From: Anadara kagoshimensis
Taxonomy: Eukaryota; Mollusca; Bivalvia; Arcoida; Arcidae
Assembly: GCA_021292105.1 (NCBI GenBank)
Contig: CM037871.1
Location: forward strand, 14,176,196-14,240,195
Direction: 5' to 3'
DNA length: 64,000 bases
Shown here: piece by piece, positions 33,721-61,571 of the stretch
How positions within the stretch are numbered: the first letter of the stretch is position 1
Layout: the number at the start of each line of letters is the position of its first letter
Program-made: the position numbers and the translations under genes
The notes under the pieces: model-generated
What the model was told of the DNA's origin: nothing
Databases searched by the model: none
The model's input: the letters and a program-made list of their open reading frames with translations, nothing else

Positions 33721-34462
33721 TTATAAAACTTCTGCATATCCCGTTTTGTCACTGACGTTAAACTCCAAACTACTTGGTGTAGTTCTTGAATTATTAGGTT
33801 CTATATCTGAATAATGAAGTCTATCTGTGTTGACATTCTCTCTACTTATTTTGCTTCCACTTTGAGCCACCGAGGGCTTTGGTGTTACAATTGGTGGCTT
33901 TTTGTTGATTGGTGGTTTACTGGCATTTGTTTTACTATTTTTTGGTTCGTTCTTAGTTTTCTTATTAACTATGGCATACACTGGCCCTGTTTCCATATCT
34001 TGTTGGTTTTCCTTTTTGTCTTGTATAGCATACACAGAAGCATCATCGTTTTCATGTTTTTGGGTCTTTGGTTTCTTTACCGGCATCGAATATACGACAC
34101 CACCTTGAACTTGTTTAAGGGATCTATTTATTGGAACAGAATGCATGGTCTGGCCTTTATGTGTAGTAGTTGAGTTTGTGTTAGAAATGTTGGAGCGTGT
34201 CGAAGTTTCAACCTCTGCATAACCACCAGAGATATCAATAAAAGTATTCTTATCTCTAGGATCGGTTAAATTTATTTCGGCATAACCTCCTATATTGTCA
34301 TCTTCTAGAGGATCACTATCCATACTACGGTATAACTCATTGTCCCTCATATCATCACCGTCGGCATCATCTTCATCATGAACAACAGCCTGGTTCATAT
34401 AACTATGTGAGTCAGCCTTTGGACCTGGTTCATCGTACTGGTGCTTTCTTTTTCTTTTTCGT
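33721..34462 (-). CDS. Gene B exon 6: tyrosine-rich cytoplasmic tail
   Basis: Last coding exon of a six-exon receptor gene (492 residues). It follows 'tttgaattaag' as acceptor, completes Arg246 and runs to a TAA at 33721. Residues 246-252 are RRKRKRK, a stop-transfer after the membrane helix. The 241-residue tail has an acidic stretch (275-301) and ten tyrosines: SYMNQ at 267 (Grb2-type YxN), GGYAEI at 306, GGYAEV at 327, VVYSMP at 370, SVYAIQ at 390, PVYAIV at 408, LHYSDI at 463 (ITIM pattern) and TGYAEV at 488 (ITSM-like), plus a proline-rich stretch KPPINKKPPIVTPKP (428-442). Such tails bind SH2 and SH3 proteins after phosphorylation. The family is not one I can name. Stretches upstream of the acceptor (to 34551) are intron, not coding. 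Confidence 0.9.
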
Positions 34463-34729
34463 CTTAATTCAAAATTAAATAAAAATATATTTTTCATTGT
34501 ACAAGCAGCAGTTCTAAATACTCCCGAAACGAAAAATATAATACACGACAATATTCAAAGACAGAACAATAGTTTACAACATTAAAGACCATGGCAAAAC
34601 AATATTTACGGATATTTTGTTTATTTGTTTGACACAACATGGAACTAACTTTACAAATAACAGTAAAATAAATTGTTCCGCAATATTCTTATCAAATAAA
34701 ACTGTGAATGTATGGGTCTTATATACTAA

Positions 34730-34876
34730 AAAAACAAACATACAAATCCATGTCCGAATCGCAACCCAGAAGCAAAGTAAAACATTTGGAATTTACAAGT
34801 TAGGTTAGACGCGTGGACTTTCACCAAGGAAATGAGGCCGGGTGCTCCGAAAGGGTAAGCACCTCCTGTTTACCCT
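34730..34876 (-). repeat. Retroelement 3' tail, left of an inverted pair
   Basis: 'aaatccatgtccgaatcgca', 'acaagttaggttagacgcgt', 'gaggccgggtgctccgaaag' and 'cacctcctgttta' match the end of the tail in minus orientation. Confidence 0.7.
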
Positions 34877-34919
34877 TCACCAAAATACAGAAAAATGTGA
34901 GAAACAATACTTTTTTTAT

Positions 34920-35150
34920 TTTCATTACAGTATTGTTGATAACTATAATATCTATGTGTCTAGGATTGTCCTGAATATATTTGACGTCCAATTGTTCCAT
35001 GTTCCTTTTATTCTTTATTTTGATTACACATGTGATAGAAGAAGCTTTTAAAACACCTGACATCACTTTCCTGGTAAAAGTTCACATGTAAAGCCTAATT
35101 TGTTTCAAATTTTTACTTTGCTTTGGGAATGTAAATTATGGATTAGTGTG
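34920..35150 (+). repeat. Retroelement 3' tail, right of an inverted pair
   Basis: 'tattgttgataactataata', 'gtctaggattgtcctgaata', 'tttgacgtccaattgttcca' and 'ctttcctggtaaaagttcac' match 36187-36450 in plus orientation. With 34730-34876 it forms an inverted pair with about 45 bp between. Confidence 0.65.
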
Positions 35151-35654
35151 TGAATTTAGTAGCTTTAGAATATCCACGTAAAACAATTTTTAATTGAAAG
35201 AAAATCCATTTCGTTATTGCACTTGGAGATACGACTTCTACGAGTACATAACGTGCGATCACTAAATTCATGGAAGGAAGAGTTTTGACATTTTTTTTAT
35301 ATTTTTTCAATAAAGTGTGATTAGACATAGATTCTTGCTTTTGTACTCTTGTACACTTGTTTAATGTAAGATTAACAAACTGTCTATCAATATTTATAGA
35401 TTTGTAAGAAGATCTGTAACTATATTTTTGATATTTTAGGACACAGCATCAATAAAATAGTAACTATTGTCCTCTGCTAATGGTAAGGGGGCACTCTTTA
35501 GCTCAGTCTATGCACACCATTCAGAATTAGTGCCTGATTTACTTAGAGGCATTCAAAACATACAAGAATATACAATCCTCTTAATATCTTAATAATATCT
35601 TATCAGTATACGTCACGGGCTACCCTGTTTCACATGTAAACAATCGGTATACCA

Positions 35655-36460
35655 ATGGGTACAAACTGTGCACCATTGCTTGCTGATTTGTTTCTTTATT
35701 CTTACGAAGCAGAATTTATGCAGAACCTTGTTAAATCTGGAGAGAAAACTGTCGCCAAATCATTCAACTCAACATACAGATACATAGATGACGTTCTGTC
35801 TCTTAACAATCCTAAATTTGGAGACTATGTAAATGTCATCTATCCTAGTGAGCTTGAAATAAAAGACACGACTGATTCCTCAAGTTCTGCTTCATATTTA
35901 GACTTATACCTGAATTATGACGCACAAGAAAGGCTACATTTGAAACTTTATGACAAACGTGATGACTTCAATTTTTCTATTGTCAACTTTCCTTTTTATG
36001 CAGCAATATACCTGCTTCTCCTGCTTATGGTGTATTTGTTTCCCAATTAATACGCTATGGTAGAGCTTGTTCCCACTACGGGGACTTTGTACAACGAAGT
36101 AGGCTGCTTGCAAATAAATTGTTGACTCAGGGATATTGCAAGCCTAGGCTTATCAAGGCCCTCAAAAAGTTTTATGGCCGTCATCACAGTATTGTTGATA
36201 AGTTTGATGTCTCTGTGTCCAGGATTGCCTTGGATATATTTGACGTCTCATAATTCCATGTTCCTTTCACACAATTTTGATTACACACGTGACGGGTGTA
36301 GCTAGCTAAACAGGAGGTGCTTACCCTTCCGGAGCACCCGGCCTCACTTCCCTGGTGGAAGTTCACGTGTCTAACCTAACTTGTCAGTTCCAAAGTTTTT
36401 ACTTTGCTTCTGGATTGTGATTCGGAAATGGATAAGTATGTTTGTTTTTTGATTACAAAT
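35655..36460 (+). mobile_element. 5'-truncated retroelement: RT fragment with 3' tail
   Basis: The plus strand encodes the C-terminal half of a reverse transcriptase: GTNCAPLLADLFLYSYEAEF, then RYIDDVLSLNN (the catalytic Y-x-D-D box), IYPSELEIKD, SYLDLYL and YDKRDDFNF..IVNFP, followed by a coding end with LIRYGRACSHYGDF and KFYGRHHSIVDKF. The non-coding tail (36255-36460) is the sequence repeated across the window. This RT type is common in bivalves; I place it with Penelope-like or non-LTR elements without certainty. The fragment is incomplete and broken in at least one place. Confidence 0.8.
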
Positions 36461-36708
36461 AATGCATACTGAATAAGACAGAAGAAATATTAACATTTTC
36501 ATGTCCCTTGTATTTCAAACGACACAATTAGCTTTGAACTTAACGATTTAAAACAACAAAATTCAGACTTGTCTGTCAGAAGATAAAATGATTGCCGATA
36601 AAGTGTCGACTTATGTTATATGCTATGATATCCTAAAACATCGTTTACTGTCTGTAATTTCTGTGTAAGAGTTTAGATTAAAATAAAGACAAAAGAAAGT
36701 AAACCTAC

Positions 36709-36796
36709 CTACTACAGACTATGGCTAATATTATAATAACAATAACAACCAAGACGCCACCTCCAGCAGCAGATGCCAAAATATGCACTGGTAGAC
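36709..36796 (-). CDS. Gene B exon 5: transmembrane helix
   Basis: An 88-bp exon between 'tttatccag' and AGTAG|GTAGGT. It codes residues 217-246. A small-residue run (ASAAGGG) leads into VLVVIVIIILAIVC, a single hydrophobic span of about 22 residues. Phase 1 on the 5' side joins exactly to exon 4 (Gly217), and phase 2 on the 3' side makes Arg246 with exon 6. Because the phases and the change of character (stalk, helix, basic cluster) both agree, the exon is well supported although it has no start codon of its own. Confidence 0.9.
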
Positions 36797-38286
36797 CTGG
36801 ATAAAACATGAACGATATGCATGACAAAGACAAAATTATCATAACTTTGATAGAGCAGCATAATGTCAGAGTTCAAATCATCAAAATTCAGGAAAGTTCA
36901 TTTGGAAAATAAACGTTCTTCACCGGCGTAAGAAAAAACAAAAAGAACTTGCCAGACCATGTTCAAATCAAACCTCAAAAAGCGCAGCAACAACAAAAAG
37001 ATACAAAAAATCGATAATTTTACCCAAAATATCATAAGATCGTTTAGTATCACAAAATATATAAACGTATTGAGTATAATCAATCTCATAAATTTTCACA
37101 ACCAATATGGGCTCTGAATTTACATTCTTCAAAACAATCATTCTGAAAGGCTAAGTGCAAATAAAATTATTAAATGAACAATTAGTAACGCGTGTAAATT
37201 TCATAACATTTCACAAGATAGCCCGTCCCGTCTGAATCAGTCAATTAGCAAAAGAACCACTGCGATATATCTACCTCATTGAAAATTAGAAAATTTGGTT
37301 TTTTTTACACCAAAACCAAAATGCTTTATTATATCAGGATTAATAATTTTAGAACAAAAATGTTTGGGACTTCACCAAGAGTGCTACAGTCACACCTACA
37401 AAGAAACTTAGTTCCAAGTGATTATTAATCACTTTCTAAGTAAACTATATCATTTTATTTGTTAAAATTCTTTCTGTAGTTAAAATACTAAAATATATAA
37501 AAATATGGTAGAATTGGATTTTTGGTTAGTGTATTTAACGAATATTTATATTTCGCATAACGTCCATTTCCTAATGCAAAAAGATGTTTATAGTATTATT
37601 TGTCATAGAAAAAACATTTTTACTTATGTTGTGGAACAGATGCTTTGTTCTGATTGTTTAAAATCATTTTTGCCAAAGGACACCCGTTTTGTGTCTGGAA
37701 TATATTAAGGGAGATAACAGTGTCTTTTGCAATTTTGTTGTGTCCAAGTTACATCGTTTACATCTAGTGGTATGTCACATGTAACCAACTATTAAACAAA
37801 TCATTGATAAAGCATGTCAAAAATTGTTGTAACAAACAAATTTGTTGCTAGCTATGAATCACTTTTATGGGGTGCCCAGACTTTCTAGATGGACCTGTAT
37901 ATACACACTGTGTATATAATATGCATGTCTCGGGTGTTTTGTTCAAGTTCATAATACAAATTTGTTGCTAGTTATGAATCACTTTTATGGGGTGCCCAGA
38001 CTTTCTAGATGAACCTGTATATACACACTGTGTATATAATATGAATGTCTCGGGTGTTTTTTTCAAGTTCATAATACATGTATATTTAATCAATAGATTG
38101 TTTTTATTTGAATATGGACTTGACGAAAATTTTAATTTGTTTTTTAAAGTAAGAATGCGTCTTGCGTTTAAGTATTTAAAAGGCTCTAATCATCGATATT
38201 AGAGTTCTTTTTTAAAAAATGTTTATGTAAAATACAGGAGAAAGTTCGAAGAAAACAACAATAATAAGTGAAGTAGAATACCATAC
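36797..38286 (-). other. Gene B intron 4
   Basis: Contains the 120-bp tandem duplication at 37838-38077. Otherwise nothing recognised. Confidence 0.8.
37838..38077 (+). repeat. 120-bp tandem duplication
   Basis: Two copies exactly 120 bp apart ('tttgttgctagctatgaatc' at 37841 and 37961, three or four differences). Each contains the palindrome TATATACACACTGTGTATAT, which matches the outer end of the palindromic MITE at 15953-17692. Confidence 0.9.
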
Positions 38287-38514
38287 CTTTGTTTTCGTCA
38301 GTGTTTGTAGATGTCGTTGTTGTTGCTGAATGTTTAACGGTGATCTTTGATGTTGCAGTACCAGTGTTAGTTGTACCAGTTGTAGACTCACCAGATGTGG
38401 AATCAGAAGCAGTGGTATCCTTTGTATTTACAGGTGGTTCCGTAGACGTGGTAGTTGCTGTAGTAACATGCGTGTCTTTGAAACACTTTAGATTTATATC
38501 GATGCCATTTATAC
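38287..38514 (-). CDS. Gene B exon 4: end of ectodomain and Ser/Thr stalk
   Basis: A 228-bp exon between 'tgtaaatag' and AAAG|GTATGG, phase 1 at both ends. It codes residues 141-217: INGIDINLKCFKD, with the eighth extracellular cysteine (Cys151), then about 62 residues very rich in Thr and Ser (TTATTTSTEPP, STTGTTNTGTATS, SATTTTSTNTDENK). This is a mucin-like, probably O-glycosylated stalk holding the ectodomain away from the membrane. The exon lies directly before the membrane helix. Confidence 0.88.
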
Positions 38515-40404
38515 CTATTTACAATTACATTATATATTAAAGCGAATTGAAGATGGCACATTGCTCTGGTCTCTTGCGATTTTTTTCTTCGATCAAATTG
38601 TAATACAATTATATATGATGTAAAATTTTATGTATGGAATGTTTTAAGGTAGTGACATATATGGATTTATGTTAAGTTTCAAAGACAACAAACACCGATT
38701 GTAAACAGATTTTGTGAACTCATATTTATTTTGTTGTCATTTTAGCTCACCTGACCAAAGGTCATGTGAGCTTATGGTATGGTGCAGCATCTGTATGTGC
38801 GTGTGTGGGTGCGTGCGTCGTTTACAACATTTTCGACTTATCCTCTGAAAGTACTTGGCAGATTTCAATGAAACTTGGTGGAAAGTATATGTGGGCTGGT
38901 GCAATTCAGATTTGTTCGTGGCGTTGCCATGGCTACCATAACTAGGTCAAGGGCCTAGGGGTGCAAAAATCTTAAAAAATCTTCTTCTCCGAAAGTATTC
39001 ATTGGAGAAAAAATCTGATGTGCTATTTGACTTCTCTTTGGTCTTAAGCCTATAGTTTGTTCATTTTGTGAAATTGGGACAAAAAAGAGGTTACGCGTTT
39101 TTGCGTTTAATTTTGAAAAAAATCGGAAAATAGCTTCAAATTGTAATAACTTGACTATTTGACCGGATAATGATATGGGGTTTTCAGTTTTGACATCTTC
39201 TTGTTTGTATCTTCAAAATGAGGTCAGGGTCAGTTGTGAAGGTCATGCCCTAATTTTTTTTAACCCCTGATTATAATTATTATCTCGAAAACTATAAACG
39301 TTTTGTATAGTCATGTAAATTAGAATGTTGTATGTATTGATACAACGATCATTTTGATGTATAGAAAAAAGTCATGGATTCAAATGTCAAGGTCACAGAT
39401 GCAAAACAATACCAAAATAGCTAATTATCTCGAAGACTATTAACTTTTTGTATAGGCATGTATATTAGAATGTTGTAGGTATTGATACAACGATCATTTT
39501 GATGTATAGAAAAAGGTCATGGATTCAAATGTCAAGGTCACAGATGCAAAACAATACCAAAATGGTTAATTTTTTCGAAAACTATTAACTTTTTGTATAG
39601 GCACGTATATTAGAATGTTGTAGGTATCGATACAACAATCATTTCGATGTATTGAAAAAGTTCATGGGTTTAAAAGTCAAGGTCAAAGATGCAAAACAAT
39701 ACTGAAATGGTTAATTATCTTGAAAACTAAAAACCTTTTGTATAGGCATGTATACTAGAATGTTGTAGGTATTGATACAATGATCATTTTGATGTAAAGA
39801 AAAAAGTCATTGGGGTTTAGTATTTATGTTTTCTTTAAATCTATCAGCTAGCCATTAGTTATCAGGTGAGCGTATCAGGCCCATGGGCCTCTTGTTATAT
39901 ATAATGCTGGTTCATATTACAAATAGCCTTTTTCTTGTCCGGATTGAAATGTTTTCAATAGTTGAAAAATATATTGAGTTTATAACTAAATCCAGCAAAA
40001 CAATTTTAGAAATAAAGTACAATGTCATGTCAGTACTAGGGCACAACATCGATATAAGTGAAAAATTTCTTGACTAAGTCATACATCAAACTAATTTTTC
40101 TCCTCTTTTTTAACATCCACTTTATATCTATGTAACGATCAAATTTTATTTGATGTTAGGTGGACACACCATGCACCCCAACAGCATCAAACATATGATA
40201 TAAAGTTTCGATTTTCGAAATCATATTTAACATGCATATCAAGGGGGTTTTCTGACACTGATTCCTTGTATAATGTTGCAATATTTTCCTCCACAGAAAA
40301 AAAGCACGTTAATTTCAGCTTAACATTATTACATATTATTGAAGTTTGGAGTTTATATGTGTGTTTGATTATATATATTTACATTTAATTGTTTTTAACA
40401 TTAC
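38515..40404 (-). other. Gene B intron 3
   Basis: Mostly occupied by the Helitron-like repeat at 38744-39894. Confidence 0.85.
38744..39894 (+). mobile_element. Helitron-like bivalve repeat, copy c
   Basis: Starts with the hairpin AGCTCACCTGACC/GGTCATGTGAGCT and ends GGTGAGCGTATC then AGGCCCATGGGCCT and CTTG. From 39280 to 39830 it has four units of about 145-150 bp ('aactttttgtataggcatgt', 'gatacaacgatcattttgat', 'aatgtcaaggtcacagatgc'). No coding capacity. It is the most complete copy related to 11650-12935. Confidence 0.75.
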
Positions 40405-40719
40405 CTGGTATTAATTTCAGACAATACGTTTTTAATCCCACAAGTCCATTGGTTAGAAGCAGGGTATAATTAAAGACTGTACTAATCGGTTGACTTATAA
40501 GGATTTTATCACAAAAATTTGTTAAGGCGCCATTTTGTTGTCCATATTTGATGTTAGTTCTGCAGTCGGTAATTTGATTTGTTGTTGTTGTGACGAGCAC
40601 TGTTGTATCATTTCTAGCATTAAAGATACAAGTACAATTAGTTACTCGGTTTGAGACATCGGTTGAATCTATGTAGATGGTATCGCTTGTTACTTCAGAA
40701 CCACTGCAAAACTGTATGG
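40405..40719 (-). CDS. Gene B exon 3: cysteine-rich ectodomain
   Basis: A 315-bp exon between 'tattctttcag' and CCAG|GTAATG, phase 1 at both ends. It codes residues 36-141, one compact extracellular domain with six cysteines (40, 64, 66, 88, 105, 135) and three N-glycosylation sites (Asn63, Asn72, Asn119). Alternating hydrophobic and polar runs (DTIYIDSTDVSN, TTVLVTTTTNQI, FNYTLLLTNGLV) suggest a beta-sandwich. The FCSG...IYIDST...NCTC...TDC pattern recalls CUB-like ectodomains of molluscan receptors, but I cannot assign a family. One domain per exon with symmetric 1-1 phases is usual for shuffled extracellular domains. Confidence 0.88.
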
Positions 40720-42055: not shown

Positions 42056-42097
42056 TTTTTGCGCCAGTAGGAGGATTGCTTGGAGGACAGGAAGCAA
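42056..42097 (-). CDS. Gene B exon 2: 42-bp linker exon
   Basis: A tiny exon between 'gtctttgtag' and AAAAA|GTAAGA, phase 1 at both ends. It codes residues 22-36, VASCPPSNPPTGAKT, just after the predicted signal peptide, and supplies the first extracellular cysteine (Cys25). Without it the signal exon would still join exon 3 in frame, so the exon could be skipped. It is supported by splice signals and phase agreement, less by length. Confidence 0.75.
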
Positions 42098-43762: not shown

Positions 43763-43771
43763 ACAATAATG

Positions 43772-43818
<47 letters not shown>

Positions 43819-43819
43819 C
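43763..43819 (+). repeat. (ATT)n microsatellite
   Basis: About 18 ATT units. Confidence 0.95.
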
Positions 43820-44149
43820 AAACTTACTGCAAATAAGGAATAGGAAGCTATCCAATTGAAATAGTTTTCATATTTATGTAATACTGGGGTGAAATATTTA
43901 ATTTGAGAGACAATAACAAATTATTTTTTAAACCTTTATTTTAAAAGTTTCGTTTTACAAAAAACTACAGGTCTTGGACCCAGTTCTACCCGAAAACGTG
44001 TTTTTTTATTCATTACATGGGTAAATAATAATAAAAGTAATAATAATAGTAATAAATCTTTGATTTTATTCTAAAAAGGAATTAAAAGTTGGACAATTTC
44101 TAAAACAAATGTGATCAAAATTATTATTCCTTATGATAAATAGATAAAA

Positions 44150-44496
44150 ATAAGTAAATAAATAAATAAATAAATAACGTAATTAATAATTAGTTAATTA
44201 TTTAATTAATTATTCAGAGATATGTAAAGATAATTAAAATTATATTAACTATTAATCAAAATTAATGTGAACAATATTTTAAATAAAAAACGTAAATTTG
44301 TGTCTTTTATTATTTGTTGTGATAAATAAATAAATAAATAAATAAATAACGTAATTAATTAATTAGTTAATTATTTAATTAATTAATCAGAGATAAGTAA
44401 AGATAATTAAAATGATATTAAATATTAATGAAAATTAATATAAACAATATTTTAAATAAAAAACGGAAATGTGGGTTCTTTTATTATTTGTTGTGA

Positions 44497-44548
<52 letters not shown>

Positions 44549-44575
44549 AAATAAATAAATAAATTTCAAAAGAAA
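44150..44575 (+). repeat. Two 175-bp tandem units with (AAAT)n
   Basis: Each unit has (AAAT)n, then 'aacgtaattaattaattagt', 'agagataagtaaagataatt', 'caatattttaaataaaaaac' and 'cttttattatttgttgtgat'. A third unit begins with a long (AAAT)n run and then stops. Confidence 0.85.
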
Positions 44576-45469: not shown

Positions 45470-45630
45470 ATGTAGCTAGCTAAACAGGAGGTTCCTACCC
45501 TTCCGGAGCACCCGGCCTCACTTCCCTGGTGGAAGTTCACGTGTCTAACCTAAATTGTCAGTTCCAAAGAATTTACTTTGCTTCTGGATTGTGATTCGGA
45601 AATGGATAAGTATGTTTGTTTTTGATTATA
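45470..45630 (+). repeat. Retroelement 3' tail
   Basis: Close copy of 36297-36450: 'gtagctagctaaacaggagg', 'ccttccggagcacccggcct', 'ggtggaagttcacgtgtcta', 'gattcggaaatggataagta'. Confidence 0.75.
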
Positions 45631-45634
45631 CAGA

Positions 45635-46440: not shown

Positions 46441-47984
46441 AATATTATATATAAACAATGTAGCAATATTGATAATTTATATAATTATAACATTTACGAC
46501 CCAGATTTATATTATTTCTAACAAATTATAACAATTCATTAGTAATAGACTAGGCACATTTTCAGAAAAGACGTCGTTTTAAAGAGGAAGAGGCATTTTT
46601 TAGTAAAAGCAAACCATATATCATTCTTACCTAATTTGGGAGTGCTGAGTCCGAAAATGGCGGATACCAAGCTGAAAAATGGCTCTAAGTAGGTAAAAAT
46701 TTAAATACAAAATGGCCGCCAAATCAAAATGCATTTTTGCATGAAAGTTGATGAAGAAGATGTTTTGGTAGCAACGAACTGCAATTAATCAAAGATTGCA
46801 ATCTTTCAAGGCTTAATTGGGTGTTAATGAAGAAAATTCAAACAAAATACATATGGGGCTTATTGCTCACCTGAAAACATGTAAAAGATACTGAAATTTT
46901 AGGGGAACAACACCTTCGTTGATTATCATACACAAAATTTGCTACGGAGTTAGATCTTGGCATGTTGATTATTTTTGCAACTTGGTGTTGTTATCTATTT
47001 ATGATACTCTTTAAAAATATGGTCAAAACTTAAATTCGCAAAAATTATACTCCAGGGGTAACAACTCATCTATGGATCATCGTATTTTTACAAACATTGC
47101 TACTTAGTTTGTCATGTCCATTATTTTTTAATGTCTTCTTTATATAACACTAATAGTTTTCTAGTAAATAACCACAAAACAAGCACAATTTGCGAAAAAA
47201 TCAAGTATTTTCAGGTGCAATAACTCTGTAAAAAGGGGTTTGATATTTATGAAATCAAAAGATCAGACATGCCGGTCAGCCTTCGTCTCAGGTGGCCTGG
47301 TGAAAAAGGTCAGTATGAAAAAATGCATATATTTGACTCATGAACGAAGTTCAAATGTTTAATTTAAGTTAGTTTTAAAGGTTTTCGCTTTTGGTTTTGG
47401 ATTGTAATTTGAACATAGGACTATGTTTCTGTTTAATTAAATGAATTAAGTATGACACATAACATGCTGAAACACTGATATATGTATTCTAGAGTGTGAA
47501 TAAAATAGCTTACAAAATTGAAACCTGTGTTCTCACGAAATGCTTAAGATTTTTTTCTTTTGCAGTGGAAGAGCAAAGTAAATGTAACAACACTAGCCTT
47601 CCAAACCTATTTAGAGGTGCTAAGTCACCAGCGAGCAACTCTAAGCTGACTATTTCCTAAAAAGGTGAACTTGCACTACAAAATGTTTATGTGAAGTTTG
47701 ATATTCAACTATAGCAAAAAGTAATACTACATTTTATTTTATTAAAACTGATAAGAAGTAAGAAGACTGAATGATATACCGCGAGCCTTCTGTTTAAGGA
47801 GATTAACGCCGATGTACCTTTTCAACCCTTCTATCACCTGACTATTTAAATCCGTGTATCCGAAGACCAGTGTAATTTTGTAAGTTAATATCAGCAAGGT
47901 ATTACTCTAAAATAAATAGGACTAGTGACTTGGAAAATGTAAAAAATTGTGAAAGAGCACGATCCAATATTTGCACAAAAACGG

Positions 47985-48850
47985 TTAGGCACCTATCCAT
48001 ACTGATATGATAGCAACATGCCCCTACATAGGCAAGAGTAAAAAGGTGGGTGGCGGATTATGAAGAGGACAAGCAGAACATTAATGATGACCCCAGTCAT
48101 GGAAGGTATGCCACAGTTGCAACCCCAAAAATTGTCAATAGAGCTTTGTTGTCATTCCATTCATGGTAGCCGAAATCACCATTGCTTGCTCATTTTTGAG
48201 ATATCCTTTTCTTTCAAAAAGAAAAAAAAATGTTTTTGCAAATCTGTAAAAACAAAAATACTCTAAACATTTTCACAAATTTTGAAAGTTGGGCCACTAA
48301 TCATTTTAAAATTGTGAAAACGTAGATAAAAAACCATGGTATTGTTATGACTGACAGGTGAGTTACAGAAACTATAAGGGCATTTCATAGAGAACGGTAC
48401 ATTCTATTCTGACATCTTGCCATAAGAAAGCTTTTGGTCTGTTGGGCTCCTGGCAATTAATCAGCAGCACACAAGATGCACTTTGTCGCGTGTAAATCTA
48501 AACATTTTAGTGGTATATCCTGCTAGTTTCCACAAGAGCTTTATTTCTATGGAGTCAAAGCGGTAAATATTTTATCCCTGAGCCCAAATAAGAGTCTAAA
48601 CAATGTTCATATACGCCAAAGAAGGCAGAGAAAGACTGTTCCATCACCACAGTTAACTTAGATACGGATGGAATTCTGATGGTACATGTAGATTATTTCC
48701 AAAAGGGACAAAAAATAAATGGCACATAATTTGTATTACTTTTCAGGCTGTTACGGAAAAATATTCAACTCCAATGTTGTGGAAAACTCAGTAAAGGTGT
48801 CTTACTCCACTGACACAATTCTAACATTGTCTTGACTGCAATTAACGATT
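47985..48850 (+). pseudogene. Decayed mariner transposase inside unit 1
   Basis: From about 48050 the plus strand reads VADYEEDKQNINDDPSHGRY then ATVATPKIVNRA, matching the mariner N-terminal block (E.DxREGRPxTATTPxxIxxV). Further on, YIYPEPK-like text, SYTPKKAEK, GILMVHVDYFQKGQKINGT (near 48680) and GKLSKGVLLH (near 48800) follow mariner order. Many stops and frameshifts. The same remnant recurs in the other three units at about +3651, +7300 and +10955. It is the same family as 3780-6015. Confidence 0.65.
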
Positions 48851-49239
48851 GTGGTTTTAAATTTTAAATTGAGTGGCCAACTTTTTGCTTAAGCTTGGGC
48901 ATCATTCTTGCTATTTACATTATCCAGTTTTATAGTGAGATGATGATGTTATATTGGAGGACTTTCTGAATTTTCAAGAAAATGAATTATTTAAAAGTTG
49001 CATTGAGCTCCTTAAACATCGCTGGCAAAACTGTATAGAAACTGATACTTTGTTGTAAAATAATGCAATATTACCGTCAAAATTCAAACCGCTACCTATG
49101 AGGTTTACACCGTATCAATCGATATATGTTTTTAAATAATGATTGTGATTCTACCTAATTAACCTATATCATTCTTATAAGTTTGACGCATGATGACATA
49201 GTAATTTGGTATTTTGACATTGACAACCACGGGTTCTAC

Positions 49240-50190
49240 ATACTATTTTTGAAATACAGCAAACTCGAATTATGTCAAATTAAGCATGTTGCCAACTTTT
49301 ACTTAAATTTGAAACCCCAAGTAACATTTTTGCATTAGTACACTATAAGTCGCCATTTTGTTTTTGGAATTATGAGATGAAAAACTCAATATTGAGCTTG
49401 GTATCCGCATATGTGAATTCGAGGTCCTCAATTTATGTTATATAAATCATGTTACCAACTTTTACTAAAATTTGAAACCCCAACTAACATTTTTGCATTG
49501 GTACACCATAAATTTAAGTCGCCATTTAGTTTTTGGAATTTTGGGTTAAAAAATTCAAAACTGACCTTGGTTTTCATCATTTTTGGAATCGGCATCTTCG
49601 TATTGTGTTAAATAAATCATGTTACCATTTTTTACCAAAATTTCTCAACCCAAGTAACATTTTTTTGCATTGTAAGAAAAAACCATTTATTTTAGCCGCC
49701 ATTTTGTTTTTTGAAATTATGGGTTCAAAAACTCAAAATGAGCTTGGTATCTGCGTTTTTTAATTCGCCATCCTATAATAATGTTAAAAAATCGTGTTAC
49801 TTACTTTTACCAAAATTTGTCAACCCAAGTAACATTGTTTGCATTAGTACACCATTAATTTTAACCGCCATTTTGTTTTTGGAATTATGGGTTCAAAAAC
49901 TCAAAATTGACCTTGGTATCCGCACTTTATTAATTTCAGCACCCTCGAATTATGTTAAATAAATCATGTTACCAACTTTTACTAAAATTTGTCACCCCAA
50001 GTAAGATTTTTTGCATCGGTACACCAATAATTTAAGTCGCCATTTTGTTTTTAGGATTATGGGTTTAAAAACTCAAAATTGAGCTTGGTATCCGCCATTT
50101 TTGAATTCAGCACCCTCGAATTATGTTAGAAAAGCATGTTACCAACTTTTACTAAAAAATGCCGCTTCAAGTCACAATTTCTGAATTTGT
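49240..50190 (+). repeat. Subrepeats of about 170 bp at the 3' end of unit 1
   Basis: The block 'gagcttggtatccgc', 'aaatcatgttaccaactttt', 'accccaagtaacatttttgc', 'agtcgccattttgtttttgg', 'attatgggttcaaaaactca' recurs with the phrase 'ggtat' near 49400, 49571, 49747, 49916 and 50088, a period of 169-176 bp. A single inverted copy sits at the start of the unit (46635-46740). Equivalent blocks close units 2, 3 and 4. Confidence 0.9.
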
Positions 50191-50198
50191 TCCTAGTC

Positions 50199-53100
50199 GA
50201 CTAGGCACATTTTCAGAAAAGACGTCGTTTTAAAAGGAAGAGGCATTTTTTAGTAAAAGCAAACCATATATCATTCTTACCTAATTTGGGAGTGCTGAGT
50301 CCGAAAATGGCGGATACCAAGCTGAAAAATGGCTCTAAGTAGGTAAAAATTTAAATACAAAATGGCCGCCAAATCAAAATGCATTTTTGCATGAAAGTTG
50401 ATGAAGAAGATGTTTTGGTAGCAACGAACTGCAATTAATCAAAGATTGCAATCTTTCAAGGCTTAATTGGGTGTTAATGAACAGAAAATTCAAACAAAAC
50501 ATATGGGGCTTATTGCTCACCTGAAAACATGTAAAAGATACTGAAATTTTAGGGGAACAACACCTTCGTTGATTATCATACACAAAATTTGCTACGGAGT
50601 TAGATCTTGGCATGTTGATTATTTTTGCAACTTGGTGTTGTTATCTATTTATGATACTCTTTAAAAATATGGTCAAAAACTTAAATTCGCAAAAATTATA
50701 CTCCAGGGGTAACAACTCATCTATGGATCATCGTATTTTTACAAACATTGCTACTTAGTTTGTCATGTCCATTATTTTTTAATGTCTTCTTTATATAACA
50801 CTAATAGTTTTCTAGTAAATAACCACAAAACAAGCACAATTTGCGAAAAAATCAAGTATTTTCAGGTGCAATAACTCTGTAAAAAGGGGTTTGATATTTA
50901 TGAAATCAAAAGATCAGACATGCCGGTCAGCCTTCGTCTCAGGTGGCCTGGCGAAAAAGGTCAGTATGAAAAAATGCATATATTTGACTCATGAACGAAG
51001 TTCAAATGTTTAATTTAAGTTAGTTTTAAAGGTTTTCGCTTTTGGTTTTGGATTGTAATTTGAACATAGGACTATGTTTCTGTTTAATTAAATGAATTAA
51101 GTATGACACATAACATGCTGAAACACTGATATATGTATTCTAGAGTGTGAATAAAATAGCTTACAAAATTGAAACCTGTGTTCTCACGAAATGCTTAAGA
51201 TTTTTTCTTTTTGCAGTGGAAGAGCAAAGTAAATGTAACAACACTAGCCTTCCAAACCTATTTAGAGGTGCTAAGTCACCAGCGAGCAACTCTAAGCTGA
51301 CTATTTCCTAAAAAGGTGAACTTGCACTACAAAATGTTTATGTGAAGTTTGATATTCAACTATAGCAAAAAGTAATACTACATTTTATTTTATTAAAACT
51401 GATAAGAAGTAAGAAGACTGAATGATATACCGCGAGCCTTCTGTTTAAGGAGATTAACGCCGATGTACCTTTTCAACCCTTCTATCACCTGACTATTTAA
51501 ATCCGTGTATCCGAAGACCAGTGTAATTTTGTAAGTTAATATCAGCAAGGTATTACTCTAAAATAAATAGGACTAGTGACTTGGAAAATGTAAAAAATTG
51601 TGAAGAGCACGATCCAATATTTGCACAAAAACGGTTAGGCACCTATCCATACTGATATGATAGCAACATGCCCCTACATAGGCAAGAGTAAAAAGGTGGG
51701 TGGCGGATTATGAAGAGGACAAGCAGAACATTAATGATGACTACAGTCATGGAAGGTATGCAACAGTTGCAACCCCCAAAAATTGTCAATAGAGCTTTGT
51801 TGTCATTCCATTCATGGTAGCCGAAATCACCATTGCTTGCTCATTTTTGAGATATCCTTTTCTTTCAAAAAGAAAAAAAAATGTTTTTGCAAATCTGTAA
51901 AAACAAAAATACTCTAAACATTTTCACAAATTTTGAAAGTTGGGCCACTAATCATTTTAAAATTGTGAAAACGTAGATAAAAAACCATGGTATTGTTATG
52001 ACTGACAGGTGAGTTACAGAAACTATAAGGGCATTTCATAGAGAACGGTACATTCTATTCTGACATCTTGCCATAAGAAAGCTTTTGGTCTGTTGGGCTC
52101 CTGGCAATTAATCAGCAGCACACAAGATGCACTTTGTCGCGTGTAAATCTAAACATTTTAGTGGTATATCCTGCTAGTTTCCACAAGAGCTTTATTTCTA
52201 TGGAGTCAAAGCGGTAAATATTTTATCCCTGAGCCCAAATAAGAGTCTAAACAATGTTCATATACGCCAAAGAAGGCAGAGAAAGACTGTTCCATCACCA
52301 CAGTTAACTTAGATACGGATGGAATTCTGATGGTACATGTAGATTATTTCCAAAAGGGACAAAAAATAAATGGCACATAATTTGTATTACTTTTCAGGCT
52401 GTTACGGAAAAATATTCAACTCAAGTGTTGTGGAAAACTCAGTAAAGGTGTCTTACTCCACTGACACAATTCTAACATTGTCTTGACTGCAATTAACGAT
52501 TGTGGTTTTAAATTTTAAATTGAGTGGCCAACTTTTTGCTTAAGCTTGGGCATCATTCTTGCTATTTACATTATCCAGTTTTATAGTGAGATGATGATGT
52601 TATATTGGAGGACTTTCTGAATTTTCAAGAAAATGAATTATTTAAAAGTTGCATTGAGCTCCTTAAACATCGCTGGCAAAACTGTATAGAAACTGATACT
52701 TTGTTGTAAAATAATGCAATATTACCGTCAAAATTCAAACCGCTACCTATGAGGTTTACACCGTATCAATCGATATATGTTTTTAAATAATGATTGTGAT
52801 TCTACCTAATTAACCTATATCATTCTTATAAGTTTGACGCATGATGACATAGTAATTTGGTATTTTGACATTGACAACCACGGGTTCTACATACTATTTT
52901 TGAAATACAGCAAACTCGAATTATGTCAAATTAAGCATGTTGCCAACTTTTACTTAAATTTGAAACCCCAAGTAACATTTTTGCATTAGTACACTATAAG
53001 TCGCCATTTTTTTTTGGAATTATGAGATGAAAAACTCAATATTGAGCTTGGTATCCGCATATGTGAATTCGAGGTCCTCAATTTATGTTATATAAATCAT

Positions 53101-53848
53101 GTTACCAACTTTTACTAAAATTTGAAACCCCAACTAACATTTTTGCATTGGTACACCATAAATTTAAGTCGCCATTTAGTTTTTGGAATTTTGGGTTAAA
53201 AAATTCAAAACTGACCTTGGTTTTCATCATTTTTGGAATCGGCATCTTCGTATTGTGTTAAATAAATCATGTTACCATTTTTTACCAAAATTTCTCAACC
53301 CAAGTAACATTTTTTTGCATTGTAAGAAAAAACCATTTATTTTAGCCGCCATTTTGTTTTTTGAAATTATGGGTTCAAAAACTCAAAAATGAGCTTGGTA
53401 TCTGCGTTTTTAATTCGCCATCCTATAATAATGTTAAAAAAATCGTGTTACTTACTTTTACCAAAATTTGTCAACCCAAGTAACATTGTTTGCATTAGTA
53501 CACCATTAATTTTAACCGCCATTTTGTTTTTGGAATTATGGGTTCAAAACTCAAAATTGACCTTGGTATCCGCACTTTATTAATTTCAGCACCCTCGAAT
53601 TATGTTAAATAAATCATGTTACCAACTTTTACTAAAATTTGTCACCCCAAGTAAGATTTTTTGCATCGGTACACCAATAATTTAAGTCGCCATTTTGTTT
53701 TTAGGATTATGGGTTTAAAAACTCAAAATTGAGCTTGGTATCCGCCATTTTTGAATTCAGCACCCTCGAATTATGTTAGAAAAGCATGTTACCAACTTTT
53801 ACTAAAAAATGCCGCTTCAAGTCACAATTTCTGAATTTGTTCCTAGTC
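50199..53848 (+). mobile_element. Tetramer unit 2: 3650 bp
   Basis: Abuts unit 1 with no intervening base: CCTAGTC|GACTAGG. Nearly identical to unit 1. It differs at single bases and homopolymer lengths (for example GATGACTACAGTC instead of GATGACCCCAGTC near 51737). Confidence 0.92.
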
Positions 53849-56800
53849 GACTAGGCACATTTTCAGAAAAGACGTCGTTTTAAAGAGGAAGAGGCATTTT
53901 TTAGTAAAAGCAAACCATATATCATTCTTACCTAATTTGGGAGTGCTGAGTCCGAAAATGGCGGATACCAAGCTGAAAAATGGCTCTAAGTAGGTAAAAA
54001 TTTAAATACAAAATGGCCGCCAAATCAAAATGCATTTTTGCATGAAAGTTGATGAAGAAGATGTTTTGGTAGCAACGAACTGCAATTAATCAAAGATTGC
54101 AATCTTTCAAGGCTTAATTGGGTGTTAATGAACAGAAAATTCAAACAAAATACATATGGGGCTTATTGCTCACCTGAAAACATGTAAAAGATACTGAAAT
54201 TTTAGGGGAACAACACCTTCGTTGATTATCATACACAAAATTTGCTACGGAGTTAGATCTTGGCATGTTGATTATTTTTGCAACTTGGTGTTGTTATCTA
54301 TTTATGATACTCTTTAAAAATATGGTCAAAAACTTAAATTCGCAAAAATTATACTCCAGGGGTAACAACTCATCTATGGATCATCGTATTTTTACAAACA
54401 TTGCTACTTAGTTTGTCATGTCCATTATTTTTTAATGTCTTCTTTATATAACACTAATAGTTTTCTAGTAAATAACCACAAAACAAGCACAATTTGCGAA
54501 AAAATCAAGTATTTTCAGGTGCAATAACTCTGTAAAAAGGGGTTTGATATTTATGAAATCAAAAGATCAGACATGCCGGTCAGCCTTCGTCTCAGGTGGC
54601 CTGGCGAAAAAGGTCAGTATGAAAAAATGCATATATTTGACTCATGAACGAAGTTCAAATGTTTAATTTAAGTTAGTTTTAAAGGTTTTCGCTTTTGGTT
54701 TTGGATTGTAATTTGAACATAGGACTATGTTTCTGTTTAATTAAATGAATTAAGTATGACACATAACATGCTGAAACACTGATATATGTATTCTAGAGTG
54801 TGAATAAAATAGCTTACAAAATTGAAACCTGTGTTCTCACGAAATGCTTAAGATTTTTTCTTTTTGCAGTGGAAGAGCAAAGTAAATGTAACAACACTAG
54901 CCTTCCAAACCTATTTAGAGGTGCTAAGTCACCAGCGAGCAACTCTAAGCTGACTATTTCCTAAAAAGGTGAACTTGCACTACAAAATGTTTATGTGAAG
55001 TTTGATATTCAACTATAGCAAAAAGTAATACTACATTTTATTTTATTAAAACTGATAAGAAGTAAGAAGACTGAATGATATACCGCGACCTTCTTCTGTT
55101 TAAGGAGATTAACGCCGATGTACCTTTTCAACCCTTCTATCACCTGACTATTTAAATCCGTGTATCCGAAGACCAGTGTAATTTTGTAAGTTAATATCAG
55201 CAAGGTATTACTCTAAAATAAATAGGACTAGTGACTTGGAAAATGTAAAAAATTGTGAAAGAGCACGATCCAATATTTGCACAAAAACGGTTAGGCACCT
55301 ATCCATACTGATATGATAGCAACATGCCCCTACATAGGCAAGAGTAAAAAGGTGGGTGGCGGATTATGAAGAGGACAAGCAGAACATTAATGATGACTAC
55401 AGTCATGGAAGGTATGCAACAGTTGCAACCCCAAAAATTGTCAATAGAGCTTTGTTGTCATTCCATTCATGGTAGCCGAAATCACCATTGCTTGCTCATT
55501 TTTGAGATATCCTTTTCTTTCAAAAAGAAAAAAAAATGTTTTTGCAAATCTGTAAAAACAAAAATACTCTAAACATTTTCACAAATTTTGAAAGTTGGGC
55601 CACTAATCATTTTAAAATTGTGAAAACGTAGATAAAAAACCATGGTATTGTTATGACTGACAGGTGAGTTACAGAAACTATAAGGGCATTTCATAGAGAA
55701 CGGTACATTCTATTCTGACATCTTGCCATAAGAAAGCTTTTGGTCTGTTGGGCTCCTGGCAATTAATCAGCAGCACACAAGATGCACTTTGTCGCGTGTA
55801 AATCTAAACATTTTAGTGGTATATCCTGCTAGTTTCCACAAGAGCTTTATTTCTATGGAGTCAAAGCGGTAAATATTTTATCCCTGAGCCCAAATAAGAG
55901 TCTAAACAATGTTCATATACGCCAAAGAAGGCAGAGAAAGACTGTTCCATCACCACAGTTAACTTAGATACGGATGGAATTCTGATGGTACATGTAGATT
56001 ATTTCCAAAGGGACAAAAAATAAATGGCACATAATTTGTATTACTTTTCAGGCTGTTACGGAAAAATATTCAACTCAATGTTGTGGAAAACTCAGTAAAG
56101 GTGTCTTACTCCACTGACACAATTCTAACATTGTCTTGACTGCAATTAACGATTGTGGTTTTAAATTTTAAATTGAGTGGCCAACTTTTTGCTTAAGCTT
56201 GGGCATCATTCTTGCTATTTACATTATCCAGTTTTATAGTGAGATGATGATGTTATATTGGAGGACTTTCTGAATTTTCAAGAAAATGAATTATTTAAAA
56301 GTTGCATTGAGCTCCTTAAACATCGCTGGCAAAACTGTATAGAAACTGATACTTTGTTGTAAAATAATGCAATATTACCGTCAAAATTCAAACCGCTACC
56401 TATGAGGTTTACACCGTATCAATCGATATATGTTTTTAAATAATGATTGTGATTCTACCTAATTAACCTATATCATTCTTATAAGTTTGACGCATGATGA
56501 CATAGTAATTTGGTATTTTGACATTGACAACCACGGGTTCTACATACTATTTTTGAAATACAGCAAACTCGAATTATGTCAAATTAAGCATGTTGCCAAC
56601 TTTTACTTAAATTTGAAACCCCAAGTAACATTTTTGCATTAGTACACTATAAGTCGCCATTTTGTTTTTGGAATTATGAGATGAAAAACTCAATATTGAG
56701 CTTGGTATCCGCATATGTGAATTCGAGGTCCTCAATTTATGTTATATAAATCATGTTACCAACTTTTACTAAAATTTGAAACCCCAACTAACATTTTTGC

Positions 56801-57503
56801 ATTGGTACACCATAAATTTAAGTCGCCATTTAGTTTTTGGAATTTTGGGTTAAAAAATTCAAAACTGACCTTGGTTTTCATCATTTTTGGAATCGGCATC
56901 TTCGTATTGTGTTAAATAAATCATGTTACCATTTTTTACCAAAATTTCTCAACCCAAGTAACATTTTTTTGCATTGTAAGAAAAAACCATTTATTTTAGC
57001 CGCCATTTTGTTTTTTGAAATTATGGGTTCAAAAACTCAAAAATGAGCTTGGTATCTGCGTTTTTTAATTCGCCATCCTATAATAATGTTAAAAAAATCG
57101 TGTTACTTACTTTTACCAAAATTTGTCAACCCAAGTAACATTGTTTGCATTAGTACACCATTAATTTTAACCGCCATTTTGTTTTTGGAATTATGGGTTC
57201 AAAACTCAAAATTGACCTTGGTATCCGCACTTTATTAATTTCAGCACCCTCGAATTATGTTAAATAAATCATGTTACCAACTTTTACTAAAATTTGTCAC
57301 CCCAAGTAAGATTTTTTGCATCGGTACACCAATAATTTAAGTCGCCATTTTGTTTTTAGGATTATGGGTTTAAAAACTCAAAATTGAGCTTGGTATCCGC
57401 CATTTTTGAATTCAGCACCCTCGAATTATGTTAGAAAAGCATGTTACCAACTTTTACTAAAAAATGCCGCTTCAAGTCACAATTTCTGAATTTGTTCCTA
57501 GTC
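53849..57503 (+). mobile_element. Tetramer unit 3: 3655 bp
   Basis: Same junction with unit 2. It shares the CTACAGTC variant with unit 2 and has its own 'cgaccttcttctg' change near 55086 where the others read 'cgagccttctg'. Confidence 0.92.
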
Positions 57504-60500
57504 GACTAGGCACATTTTCAGAAAAGACGTCGTTTTAAAGAGGAAGAGGCATTTTTTAGTAAAAGCAAACCATATATCATTCTTACCTAATTTGGGAGTG
57601 CTGAGTCCGAAAATGGCGGATACCAAGCTGAAAAATGGCTCTAAGTAGGTAAAAATTTAAATACAAAATGGCCGCCAAATCAAAATGCATTTTTGCATGA
57701 AAGTTGATGAAGAAGATGTTTTGGTAGCAACGAACTGCAATTAATCAAAGATTGCAATCTTTCAAGGCTTAATTGGGTGTTAATGAACAGAAAATTCAAA
57801 CAAAATACATATGGGGCTTATTGCTCACCTGAAAACATGTAAAAGATACTGAAATTTTAGGGAACAACACCTTCGTTGATTATCATACACAAAATTTGCT
57901 ACGGAGTTAGATCTTGGCATGTTGATTATTTTTGCAACTTGGTGTTGTTATCTATTTATGATACTCTTTAAAAATATGGTCAAAAACTTAAATTCGCAAA
58001 AATTATACTCCAGGGGTAACAACTCATCTATGGATCATCGTATTTTTACAAACATTGCTACTTAGTTTGTCATGTCCATTATTTTTTAATGTCTTCTTTA
58101 TATAACACTAATAGTTTTCTAGTAAATAACCACAAAACAAGCACAATTTGCGAAAAAATCAAGTATTTTCAGGTGCAATAACTCTGTAAAAAGGGGTTTG
58201 ATATTTATGAAATCAAAAGATCAGACATGCCGGTCAGCCTTCGTCTCAGGTGGCCTGGCGAAAAAGGTCAGTATGAAAAAATGCATATATTTGACTCATG
58301 AACGAAGTTCAAATGTTTAATTTAAGTTAGTTTTAAAGGTTTTCGCTTTTGGTTTTGGATTGTAATTTGAACATAGGACTATGTTTCTGTTTAATTAAAT
58401 GAATTAAGTATGACACATAACATGCTGAAACACTGATATATGTATTCTAGAGTGTGAATAAATAGCTTACAAAATTGAAACCTGTGTTCTCACGAAATGC
58501 TTAAGATTTTTTCTTTTTGCAGTGGAAGAGCAAAGTAAATGTAACAACACTAGCCTTCCAAACCTATTTAGAGGTGCTAAGTCACCAGCGAGCAACTCTA
58601 AGCTGACTATTTCCTAAAAAGGTGAACTTGCACTACAAAATGTTTATGTGAAGTTTGATATTCAACTATAGCAAAAAGTAATACTACATTTTATTTTATT
58701 AAAACTGATAAGAAGTAAGAAGACTGAATGATATACCGCGAGCCTTCTGTTTAAGGAGATTAACGCCGATGTACCTTTTCAACCCTTCTATCACCTGACT
58801 ATTTAAATCCGTGTATCCGAAGACCAGTGTAATTTTGTAAGTTAATATCAGCAAGGTATTACTCTAAAATAAATAGGACTAGTGACTTGGAAAATGTAAA
58901 AAATTGTGAAAGAGCACGATCCAATATTTGCACAAAAACGGTTAGGCACCTATCCATACTGATATGATAGCAACATGCCCCTACATAGGCAAGAGTAAAA
59001 AGGTGGGTGGCGGATTATGAACAGGACAAGCAGAACATTAATGATGACCCCAGTCATGGAAGGTATGCCACAGTTGCAACCCCAAAAATTGTCAATAGAG
59101 CTTTGTTGTCATTCCATTCATGGTAGCCGAAATCACCATTGCTTGCTCATTTTTGAGATATCCTTTTCTTTCAAAAAGAAAAAAAAATGTTTTTGCAAAT
59201 CTGTAAAAACAAAAATACTCTAAACATTTTCACAAATTTTGAAAGTTGGGCCACTAATCATTTTAAAATTGTGGAAACGTAGATAAAAAACCAAGGTATT
59301 GTTATGACTGACAGGTGAGTTACAGAAACTATAAGGGCATTTCATAGAGAACGGTACATTCTATTCTGACATCTTGCCATAAGAAAGCTTTTGGTCTGTT
59401 GGGCTCCTGGCAATTAATCAGCAGCACACAAGATGCACTTTGTCGCGTGTAAATCTAAACATTTTAGTGGTATATCCTGCTAGTTTCCACAAGAGCTTTA
59501 TTTCTATGGAGTCAAAGCGGTAAATATTTCATCCCTGAGCCCAAATAAGAGTCTAAACAATGTTCATATACGCCAAAGAAGGCAGAGAAAGACTGTTCCA
59601 TCACCACAGTTAACTTAGATACGGATGGAATTCTGATGGTACATGTAGATTATTTCCAAAAGGGACAAAAAATAAATGGCACATAATTTGTATTACTTTT
59701 CAGGCTGTTACGGAAAAATATTCAACTCAAGTGTTGTGGAAAACTCAGTAAAGGTGTCTTACTCCACTGACACAATTCTAACATTGTCTTGACTGCAATT
59801 AACGATTGTGGTTTTAAATTTTAAATTGAGTGGCCAACTTTTTGCTTAAGCTTGGGCATCATTCTTGCTATTTACATTATCCAGTTTTATAGTGAGATGA
59901 TGATGTTATATTGGAGGACTTTCTGAATTTTCAAGAAAATGAATTATTTAAAAGTTGCATTGAGCTCCTTAAACATCGCTGGCAAAACTGTATAGAAACT
60001 GATACTTTGTTGTAAAATAATGCAATATTACCGTCAAAATTCAAACCGCTACCTATGAGGTTTACACCGTATCAATCGATATATGTTTTTAAATAATGAT
60101 TGTGATTCTACCTAATTAACCTATATCATTCTTATAAGTTTGACGCATGATGACATAGTAATTTGGTATTTTGACATTGACAACCACGGGTTCTACATAC
60201 TATTTTTGAAATACAGCAAACTCGAATTATGTCAAATTAAGCATGTTGCCAACTTTTACTTAAATTTGAAACCCCAAGTAACATTTTTGCATTAGTACAC
60301 TATAAGTCGCCATTTTGTTTTTGGAATTATGAGATGAAAAACTCAATATTGAGCTTGGTATCCGCATATGTGAATTCGAGGTCCTCAATTTATGTTATAT
60401 AAATCATGTTACCAACTTTTACTAAAATTTGAAACCCCAACTAACATTTTTGCATTGGTACACCATAAATTTAAGTCGCCATTTAGTTTTTGGAATTTTG

Positions 60501-61157
60501 GGTTAAAAAATTCAAAACTGATCTTGGTTTTCATCATTTTTGGAATCGGCATCTTCGTATTGTGTTAAATAAATCATGTTACCATTTTTTACCAAAATTT
60601 CTCAACCCAAGTAACATTTTTTTGCATTGTAAGAAAAAACCATTTATTTTAGCCGCCATTTTGTTTTTTGAAATTATGGGTTCAAAAACTCAAAAATGAG
60701 CTTGGTATCTGCGTTTTTTAATTCGCCATCCTATAATAATGTTAAAAAAATCGTGTTACTTACTTTTACCAAAATTTGTCAACCCAAGTAACATTGTTTG
60801 CATTAGTACACCATTAATTTTAACCGCCATTTTGTTTTTGGAATTATGGGTTCAAAAACTCAAAATTGACCTTGGTATCCGCACTTTATTAATTTCAGCA
60901 CCCTCGAATTATGTTAAATAAATCATGTTACCAACTTTTACTAAAATTTGTCACCCCAAGTAAGATTTTTTGCATCGGTACACCAATAATTTTAGTCGCC
61001 ATTTTGTTTTTAGGATTATGGGTTTAAAAACTCAAAATTGAGCTTGGTATCCGCCATTTTTGAATTCAGCACCCTCGAATTATGTTAGAAAAGCATGTTA
61101 CCAACTTTTACTAAAAAATGCCGCTTCAAGTCACAATTTCTGAATTTGTTCCTAGTC
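57504..61157 (+). mobile_element. Tetramer unit 4: 3654 bp
   Basis: Same junction with unit 3. It has the CCCCAGTC variant of unit 1 rather than that of units 2 and 3. It ends GTTCCTAGTC and is followed by TA (61158-61159), matching the TA before unit 1. Confidence 0.92.
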
Positions 61158-61159
61158 TA

Positions 61160-61500
61160 TAATTAAAATTTTGATCATTCGGGTCTTTATACGAAATGAA
61201 AGGTAAAGCAGACAGGTCAAAGTTGTTTACTTATACTGGCCTGTCAGCATACACTAGTACTATAGACTTGCTAATGAAATGCGTGTTTAAAATTTACCAC
61301 AAAGCAAATTTTTAATAAGACACGGCAGTGTAATAGAAATAAAAGTTAAAATGCCCGATTTAAATTTATGTTGTATAGAAACAATTTTACGAACAGACAT
61401 TTAAGTTGAACAAATCCTATAAAAATGAACGTACCAATAATTTGAAGCCAAAAGAAAAACAGAAAGGAGATAACTATGAATTAGATAAAAAACAAATAAA
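61160..61500. other. Intron 1 sequence, nothing recognised
   Basis: AT-rich DNA between the tetramer and the first coding exon of gene B. Confidence 0.5.
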
Positions 61501-61507
61501 AACAAAC

Positions 61508-61571
61508 CTGTCGTTGGAAGGTGAAGCAGGGCAAGTCCAAAGACAAACGACACGGAATATGGAGAACACAT
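61508..61571 (-). CDS. Gene B exon 1: signal peptide
   Basis: The ATG at 61571-61569 opens 21 codons that end at CGACAG|GTTTGT in phase 1. The peptide has a short polar start (MCSPYS) and a hydrophobic core (VSFVFGLALLHL), a good secretory signal; cleavage is likely near residues 21-23. The phase-1 G joins TT of exon 2 to give Val22. This start was chosen because it alone gives a signal sequence in the frame required by exon 2. The exon overlaps one unit of a 65-bp tandem duplication. Confidence 0.78.

Follow-up and report, generated by a model that had tools for sequence, protein, structure and literature searches.

A predicted type I receptor with a tyrosine-rich tail and a mosaic ectodomain belongs to a clustered gene family in the bivalve Anadara kagoshimensis

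Introduction

The paired receptors of vertebrates, among them KIR, LILR and SIRP, are encoded by clustered gene copies in which ectodomains and tails are reassorted; their ectodomains are of the Ig or lectin type, and activating and inhibitory partners have been defined. CUB-like domains are cysteine-rich modules of ~110–130 residues, probably rich in strands, and are found in secreted or membrane proteins. For invertebrates, five Ig domains have been described in the oyster receptor CgIgIT2 (PMC11999971), and ITIM, hemITAM or core YxxI/L/V motifs in the tails of Botryllus FcoR and Hydractinia Alr (PMC12065747); immune diversification is the subject of a review (PMC13428168).

Here we analyse a gene, termed gene A, within a 64,000-nucleotide stretch of A. 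kagoshimensis DNA (the window), which lies on contig C15 of a genome of 1.115 Gb in 36 contigs. We suggest, with a probability of roughly 0.6, that gene A is functional and encodes a type I surface receptor belonging to a clustered, recombining recognition family. New in this analysis are a break between gene A and its neighbour, paralog B, inside the ectodomain exon E3, and a further paralog, C, that combines an A-like tail with an E3 closer to that of another neighbour, B2, than to those of A and B.

Exon structure of gene A

Splicing the six minus-strand exons of gene A in silico (Table 1) yields 1479 nt, corresponding to 492 amino acids and a stop codon, with no in-frame stop across the six exons and with intact splice sites. 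All five introns are GT-AG, the exon phases are 1,1,1,1,2 (entry phases 0,1,1,1,1,2) and the order recurs in paralogs B and C, which bears out the join proposed in the initial annotation. The protein features claimed there were also recovered from the rebuilt gene, namely eight ectodomain cysteines (residues 25, 40, 64, 66, 88, 105, 135 and 151), three N-glycosylation sequons (63, 72 and 119), the membrane helix and ten tail tyrosines (254, within HQYDEP, 267, 290, 306, 327, 370, 390, 408, 463 and 488). Conceptual translation shows a predicted eight-cysteine module spread over exons 2–4, followed by the Ser/Thr stalk, the helix and the tyrosine-rich tail. The Kyte-Doolittle profile contains a single strongly hydrophobic stretch (19-residue windows starting at residues 217–231, values 1.9–3.0); hydrophobicity is less pronounced in a second stretch at residue 7. 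The stop-free run at 33721–34554 extends over 277 codons, compared with a maximum of 185 among 30 simulated Markov-1 sequences, each 64 kb long. The analysis confirms that the six exons constitute a real gene, predicted from its sequence to encode a cell-surface receptor. We note that an out-of-frame ATG at 61582 (minus strand), 11 nt 5' of the gene A start codon, is shared by all three copies, A, B and C.

Table 1. Positions of receptor exons, the A/B breakpoint, repeats and neighbouring frames (window coordinates unless stated otherwise)
Feature	Position	Strand	Description
Exon 1 (E1)	61508..61571	-	start codon and signal peptide (MCSPYSVSFVFGLALLHLPTT); GT donor; ATG also in B and C
Exon 2 (E2)	42056..42097	-	42 nt, phase 1-1, first ectodomain cysteine (ASCPPSNPPTGAK); AG and GT sites
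Exon 3 (E3)	40405..40719	-	core of the ectodomain with six invariant cysteines; phase 1-1
Exon 4 (E4)	38287..38514	-	Ser/Thr-rich stalk and last ectodomain cysteine, phase 1-1
Exon 5 (E5)	36709..36796	-	membrane helix; hydropathy
Exon 6 (E6)	33721..34462	-	cytoplasmic tail, ten tyrosines, stop
A/B breakpoint	40663	-	recombination-like; inside E3; best of all split points
Tandem array	46548..61157		four ~3.65-kb units; inside intron 1, filling most of it
HEPN_DZIP3 frame	10175-10774	+	perhaps one gene with the nSTAND3 frame
nSTAND3 and ankyrin-repeat frame	17937-20552, ankyrin on to about 22725	+	perhaps one gene with the HEPN_DZIP3 frame
AID/APOBEC-like deaminase frame	L040:4753-5352; contig C15 14244948-14245547	-	Pfam SNAD4, E 1.9e-19
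B3	L013:903-1492 and 3273-3488; contig C15 14261902-14264487	-	stalk, helix and tail exons

Paralogs B and C

The tail exon of gene A has two relatives on contig C15, which belong to paralog B, ~56 kb from A, and paralog C, ~530 kb from A, and both of these carry the six exons in the same order and on the same strand. Relative to A, E1 is 96% identical at the nucleotide level in B and 94% in C, and E5 is 89% identical in B and 73% in C; E2 is 94.5% identical in B and, in C, is diverged yet present, flanked by AG and GT sites of its own. E4 can be aligned between A and B only from 38501 downstream, and the E4 of C is a diverged copy. Splice sites are as expected at the inspected exon edges of B and C, except for the E4 acceptor in B, which is not preserved, the sequence preceding E4 being unrelated to that of A. 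The tail of B is 91% identical to that of A in amino acids and 94.8% in nucleotides. Paralog C is partly broken, its tail exon being interrupted, and the larger of the two tail pieces is 89% identical to A in amino acids; at the two gene ends, C matches A at 87.8% over 998 bp and at 87.9% over 4.6 kb.

Selection between A and B was assessed for E1, E3, E5 and E6. Both E3 (dN 0.240, dS 0.532, dN/dS 0.45; dN>dS in 0.3% of bootstraps) and E6 (dN 0.039, dS 0.110, dN/dS 0.36; dN>dS in 0.2% of bootstraps) are under purifying selection, and the short length of E1 and E5 does not permit a clear ratio (bootstraps 0.41 and 0.20). Tail comparisons with paralog C gave dN/dS values of 0.85 and 1.01, seemingly unconstrained, and the C tail looks like that of a decaying copy. 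The interrupted tail of C, together with the recent repeat array in intron 1 of gene A, would suit a reading of gene A itself as a non-functional or mis-joined relic; we consider this very unlikely, given the six exons free of in-frame stops, the intact sites and the purifying selection between A and B. The units of the array are 99.5% identical to each other, with dispersed relatives (73–95% identical) on many contigs.

A break inside the ectodomain exon

Sliding identity between A and B amounts to ~0.8–0.98 from intron 1 through E2, intron 2 and the first 60 nt of E3, drops to 0.58–0.78 in the rest of E3 and then to 0.28–0.54 in intron 3, which is not alignable, and is back at 0.89–1.0 in the tail exon. 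On either side of the breakpoint (Table 1), A and B differ at 9.6% of 635 sites (5') and at 29.0% of 255 sites (3'); the likelihood ratio of 48.7 is uncalibrated, the split having been picked from the same data. Between the neighbours A and B, divergence is much greater in the ectodomain exon than in the flanking exons and introns. Purifying selection on an exon would be expected to have the opposite effect, with fewer differences there than in introns. Amino acid identity is 65% in E3 versus 91% in the tail, making the ectodomain the more diverse part, as would be anticipated for receptors that serve recognition. Synonymous differences follow the same division, with 27.0 of 70.8 sites in E3 versus 15.5 of 152.0 in E6 (Fisher test on rounded counts, 1.8e-6).

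Positive selection was considered as the source of the ectodomain divergence and rejected, as dS is also high (0.53) and dN/dS lies below 1 in all computed E3 pairs on C15 (0.42–0.76). Within the cluster on contig C9, E3 ratios are close to 1 (21 pairs, 0.60–1.32; bootstrap share with dN>dS 0.17–0.72), and no computed pair has a dN/dS significantly above 1; positive selection on E3 is therefore not demonstrated. Rather, the synonymous divergence of E3 combined with a dN/dS below 1 is better explained by an older ancestry of the segment. A mosaic pattern is also suggested by paralog C, the E3 of which is 60% identical to that of B2, 46% to that of B and 43% to that of A, next to its A-like tail; in the E3 tree, the placement of B2 and C is not resolved. 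Swapping of E2, E3 or E4 would keep the reading frame because all three exons are of phase 1-1.

The genes could also be old duplicates in which conversion homogenised tails and flanks and the ectodomain diversity has no function. The tails and 3' flanks of A, B and C are indeed 88–95% identical, and the low E3 ratios on C15 would agree with such a history, but the break falls inside the ectodomain exon and both of its sides are otherwise open and constrained, so that we regard this account as unlikely. It differs from the recombining recognition family that we prefer solely in purpose. In such a recognition family, recombination or gene conversion among tandem copies would keep the tail uniform or reshuffle the ectodomains, and the recognition part would stay diverse.

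An ectodomain family on three contigs

Used as a query against the genome, E3 returned 19 matches with E values of up to 10, of which 12 fell below 0.001. The E3 family comprises 17 exons clustered on contigs C15 (4), C2 (5) and C9 (8), those on C9 (53.36–53.44 Mb) and C2 (45.05–45.13 Mb) being recovered in searches with members of these clusters; such tandem copies are a feature of clustered recognition-receptor families. Six cysteines are invariant in all 17 aligned E3 sequences, an alignment that consists of 16 of the counted members and one distant sequence from outside the 17 (L039, E 4.5), and that omits L038 (E 3.1, one stop) as well as L034, the frame of which ends early and which is nevertheless counted among the eight C9 copies. 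Weak and more distant E3 look-alikes (E 0.02 and above) lie at 68.8 Mb of C9 and also on C6; open frames with Cys and a Thr-rich stretch follow in two of the three inspected.

Beyond E3, the architecture of the family is drawn from the tails of A, B, C, B2, B3, one C9 gene and one C2 gene. Within 10 kb, the C9 gene contains an E3, followed by an exon with Cys and a Thr-rich stretch and by an exon for the helix; its tail bears the motifs NELY, YAEV, YAMP, YAMP and YAVP, three of which are of the YxxP type. In the best conserved stretch, its tail is 58.8% identical to that of gene A over 34 residues (E 7.6e-9, from an alignment of two sequences only with composition correction off). In the C2 gene, E3 is accompanied by a Thr-rich exon and a helix frame, and the tail ends in YTELQ; B2, a divergent neighbour on C15, combines an E3 with a stalk, a helix and a tail in which YTEL and YTQL occur. 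Downstream of gene B, the stalk, helix and tail exons of B3 encode YTEL/YTDL repeats, with no E3 of their own found nearby; B3 may represent a remnant or supply gene B with an alternative 3' end.

Neither the full gene A protein nor the 17 ectodomain exons and four further pieces matched any Pfam family above cut-off, and a PDB profile search with the ectodomain was empty at E up to 10. The initial description of a type I receptor outside the named families therefore stands, now with paralogs. At E up to 1, Pfam contained no Ig model matching either the full protein or any of the 17 ectodomain exons. CUB-like domains share with the module its size, its cysteine-richness and probably an abundance of strands; comparison of the 17 aligned ectodomains with CUB models gave no match at E up to 1. 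Fifteen Pfam families matched gene A weakly at E up to 1, all below cut-off and several on the helix; these matches, the best of which was RIFIN (1.8e-4, 22 bits versus a cut-off of 32), were rejected. Single-sequence structure prediction of E3 returned a pLDDT of 32.8 and a pTM of 0.21, a confidence at which no fold is shown. We found no description of the ectodomain family in the titles and abstract openings of the open-licence papers searched.

Tyrosine motifs of the cytoplasmic tail

The motif content of the gene A tail was compared with 5000 shuffles of the same tail. The three YAE(I/V) motifs were reached in none of the shuffles, and five Yxx(I/V/L) motifs were reached with P 0.006. Crk-type SH2 domains bind YxxP sites and Grb2-type SH2 domains bind YxN sites; the two YxxP (P 0.14) are at chance level within A alone, and the single YxN (P 0.60) is near chance, as is the single ITSM (P 0.07). 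The ITIM pattern (S/I/V/L)xYxx(I/V/L) has one site in the tail, LHYSDI (P 0.29). The unusual motif mix of the initial annotation thus holds for the triple YAE(I/V), and dissolves into near-chance occurrences for the single ITIM, ITSM and Grb2-type sites. The SH3-type proline stretch that had also been claimed is rejected, the tail containing no PxxP core.

An inhibitory ITIM/ITSM immunoreceptor, recruiting SHP-type phosphatases via LHYSDI and TGYAEV, would accord with the match of these two sites to the ITIM and ITSM patterns and with the presence of LHYSDI in the broken copy C. Oyster IgIT receptors are described as inhibitory in the title of a paper cited in PMC11999971. However, single ITIM and ITSM sites arise fairly frequently in the shuffles, and the ITIM label is further weakened by paralog B, which keeps nine of the ten tail tyrosines and has His in place of the tenth, Tyr463 of the ITIM; moreover, the one C9 tail examined contains neither motif. 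The shuffle results and the loss of Tyr463 in B therefore lead us to prefer a docking tail and to consider a dedicated inhibitory switch quite unlikely. A multi-site phosphotyrosine docking tail, as predicted from these motifs, fits better than an ITIM/ITSM switch. Upon contact of the ectodomain with a ligand, a Src-family-like kinase would phosphorylate tail tyrosines in YAE(I/V), YxxP and YMNQ, which may then gather SH2-domain adaptors, so that the tail would act in docking and not as a dedicated ITIM switch.

Such a tail might instead serve cell adhesion in a mucin-like, adhesion or structural membrane protein of epithelia with a non-immune role. The Thr-rich stalk and the short ectodomain are in keeping with this proposal, as is the resemblance of the YxxP sites, read as Crk sites, to those of adhesion scaffolds; local clusters and mosaic ectodomains are, however, more usual in recognition families, and we judge an adhesion role to be improbable, though not negligible. 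The most likely role of the gene A family would be the recognition of microbes or self on haemocytes or epithelia.

Neighbouring genes

The AID/APOBEC-like deaminase frame (Table 1) sits between receptor genes A and B, just past the end of the window. A second copy with 100% protein identity is located near gene C, and both copies lie inside a recently duplicated segment that is 98.1% identical over 10.2 kb; a further 11 weaker deaminase matches on contigs C12 and C13 include none beside a receptor exon found here. Cytidine deaminases take part in the gene conversion of lamprey VLR genes. That ectodomain pieces were swapped among the tandem copies, at breakpoints within the ectodomain exon, with a SNAD4-type deaminase taking part in the conversion is highly improbable in our estimate: the link between deaminase and receptors is purely one of position (the mosaic itself was measured), and such a role is disfavoured by the secretion that the name SNAD implies.

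The HEPN_DZIP3 and nSTAND3-ankyrin frames on the plus strand, which perhaps form one gene, are tied to the receptors by position only. Two minus-strand frames at 8627–8839 and 9213–9680 resemble, by eye only, pieces of a mariner-type transposase.

Comparison with known receptor systems

If the recognition-family reading is true, A. kagoshimensis possesses a germline receptor family whose ectodomain has no Pfam or PDB match and whose design parallels that of immune and allorecognition receptors: diverse outside, with a uniform tyrosine tail inside, clustered and recombining. The genes, exons and breakpoints named here would permit tests of how recognition diversifies in an animal that lacks antibodies.

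Oyster IgIT receptors such as CgIgIT2 (PMC11999971) resemble the predicted gene A product in being mollusc type I receptors with tail tyrosine motifs, and IgIT is reported in haemolymph; they differ in their five Ig domains, no Ig domain having been found in gene A. Botryllus FcoR and Hydractinia Alr, as described in PMC12065747, are clustered invertebrate type I receptors that likewise join variable ectodomains to tyrosine-motif tails. FcoR ectodomains are composed of Ig and sushi domains, whereas the gene A module, with its six to eight cysteines, matches no Pfam family above cut-off, and FcoR and Alr are allorecognition receptors, whereas the gene A family is known here from sequence alone. 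With the vertebrate KIR, LILR and SIRP receptors, the gene A family shares the arrangement of copies in clusters, with ectodomains and tails that appear to be reassorted.
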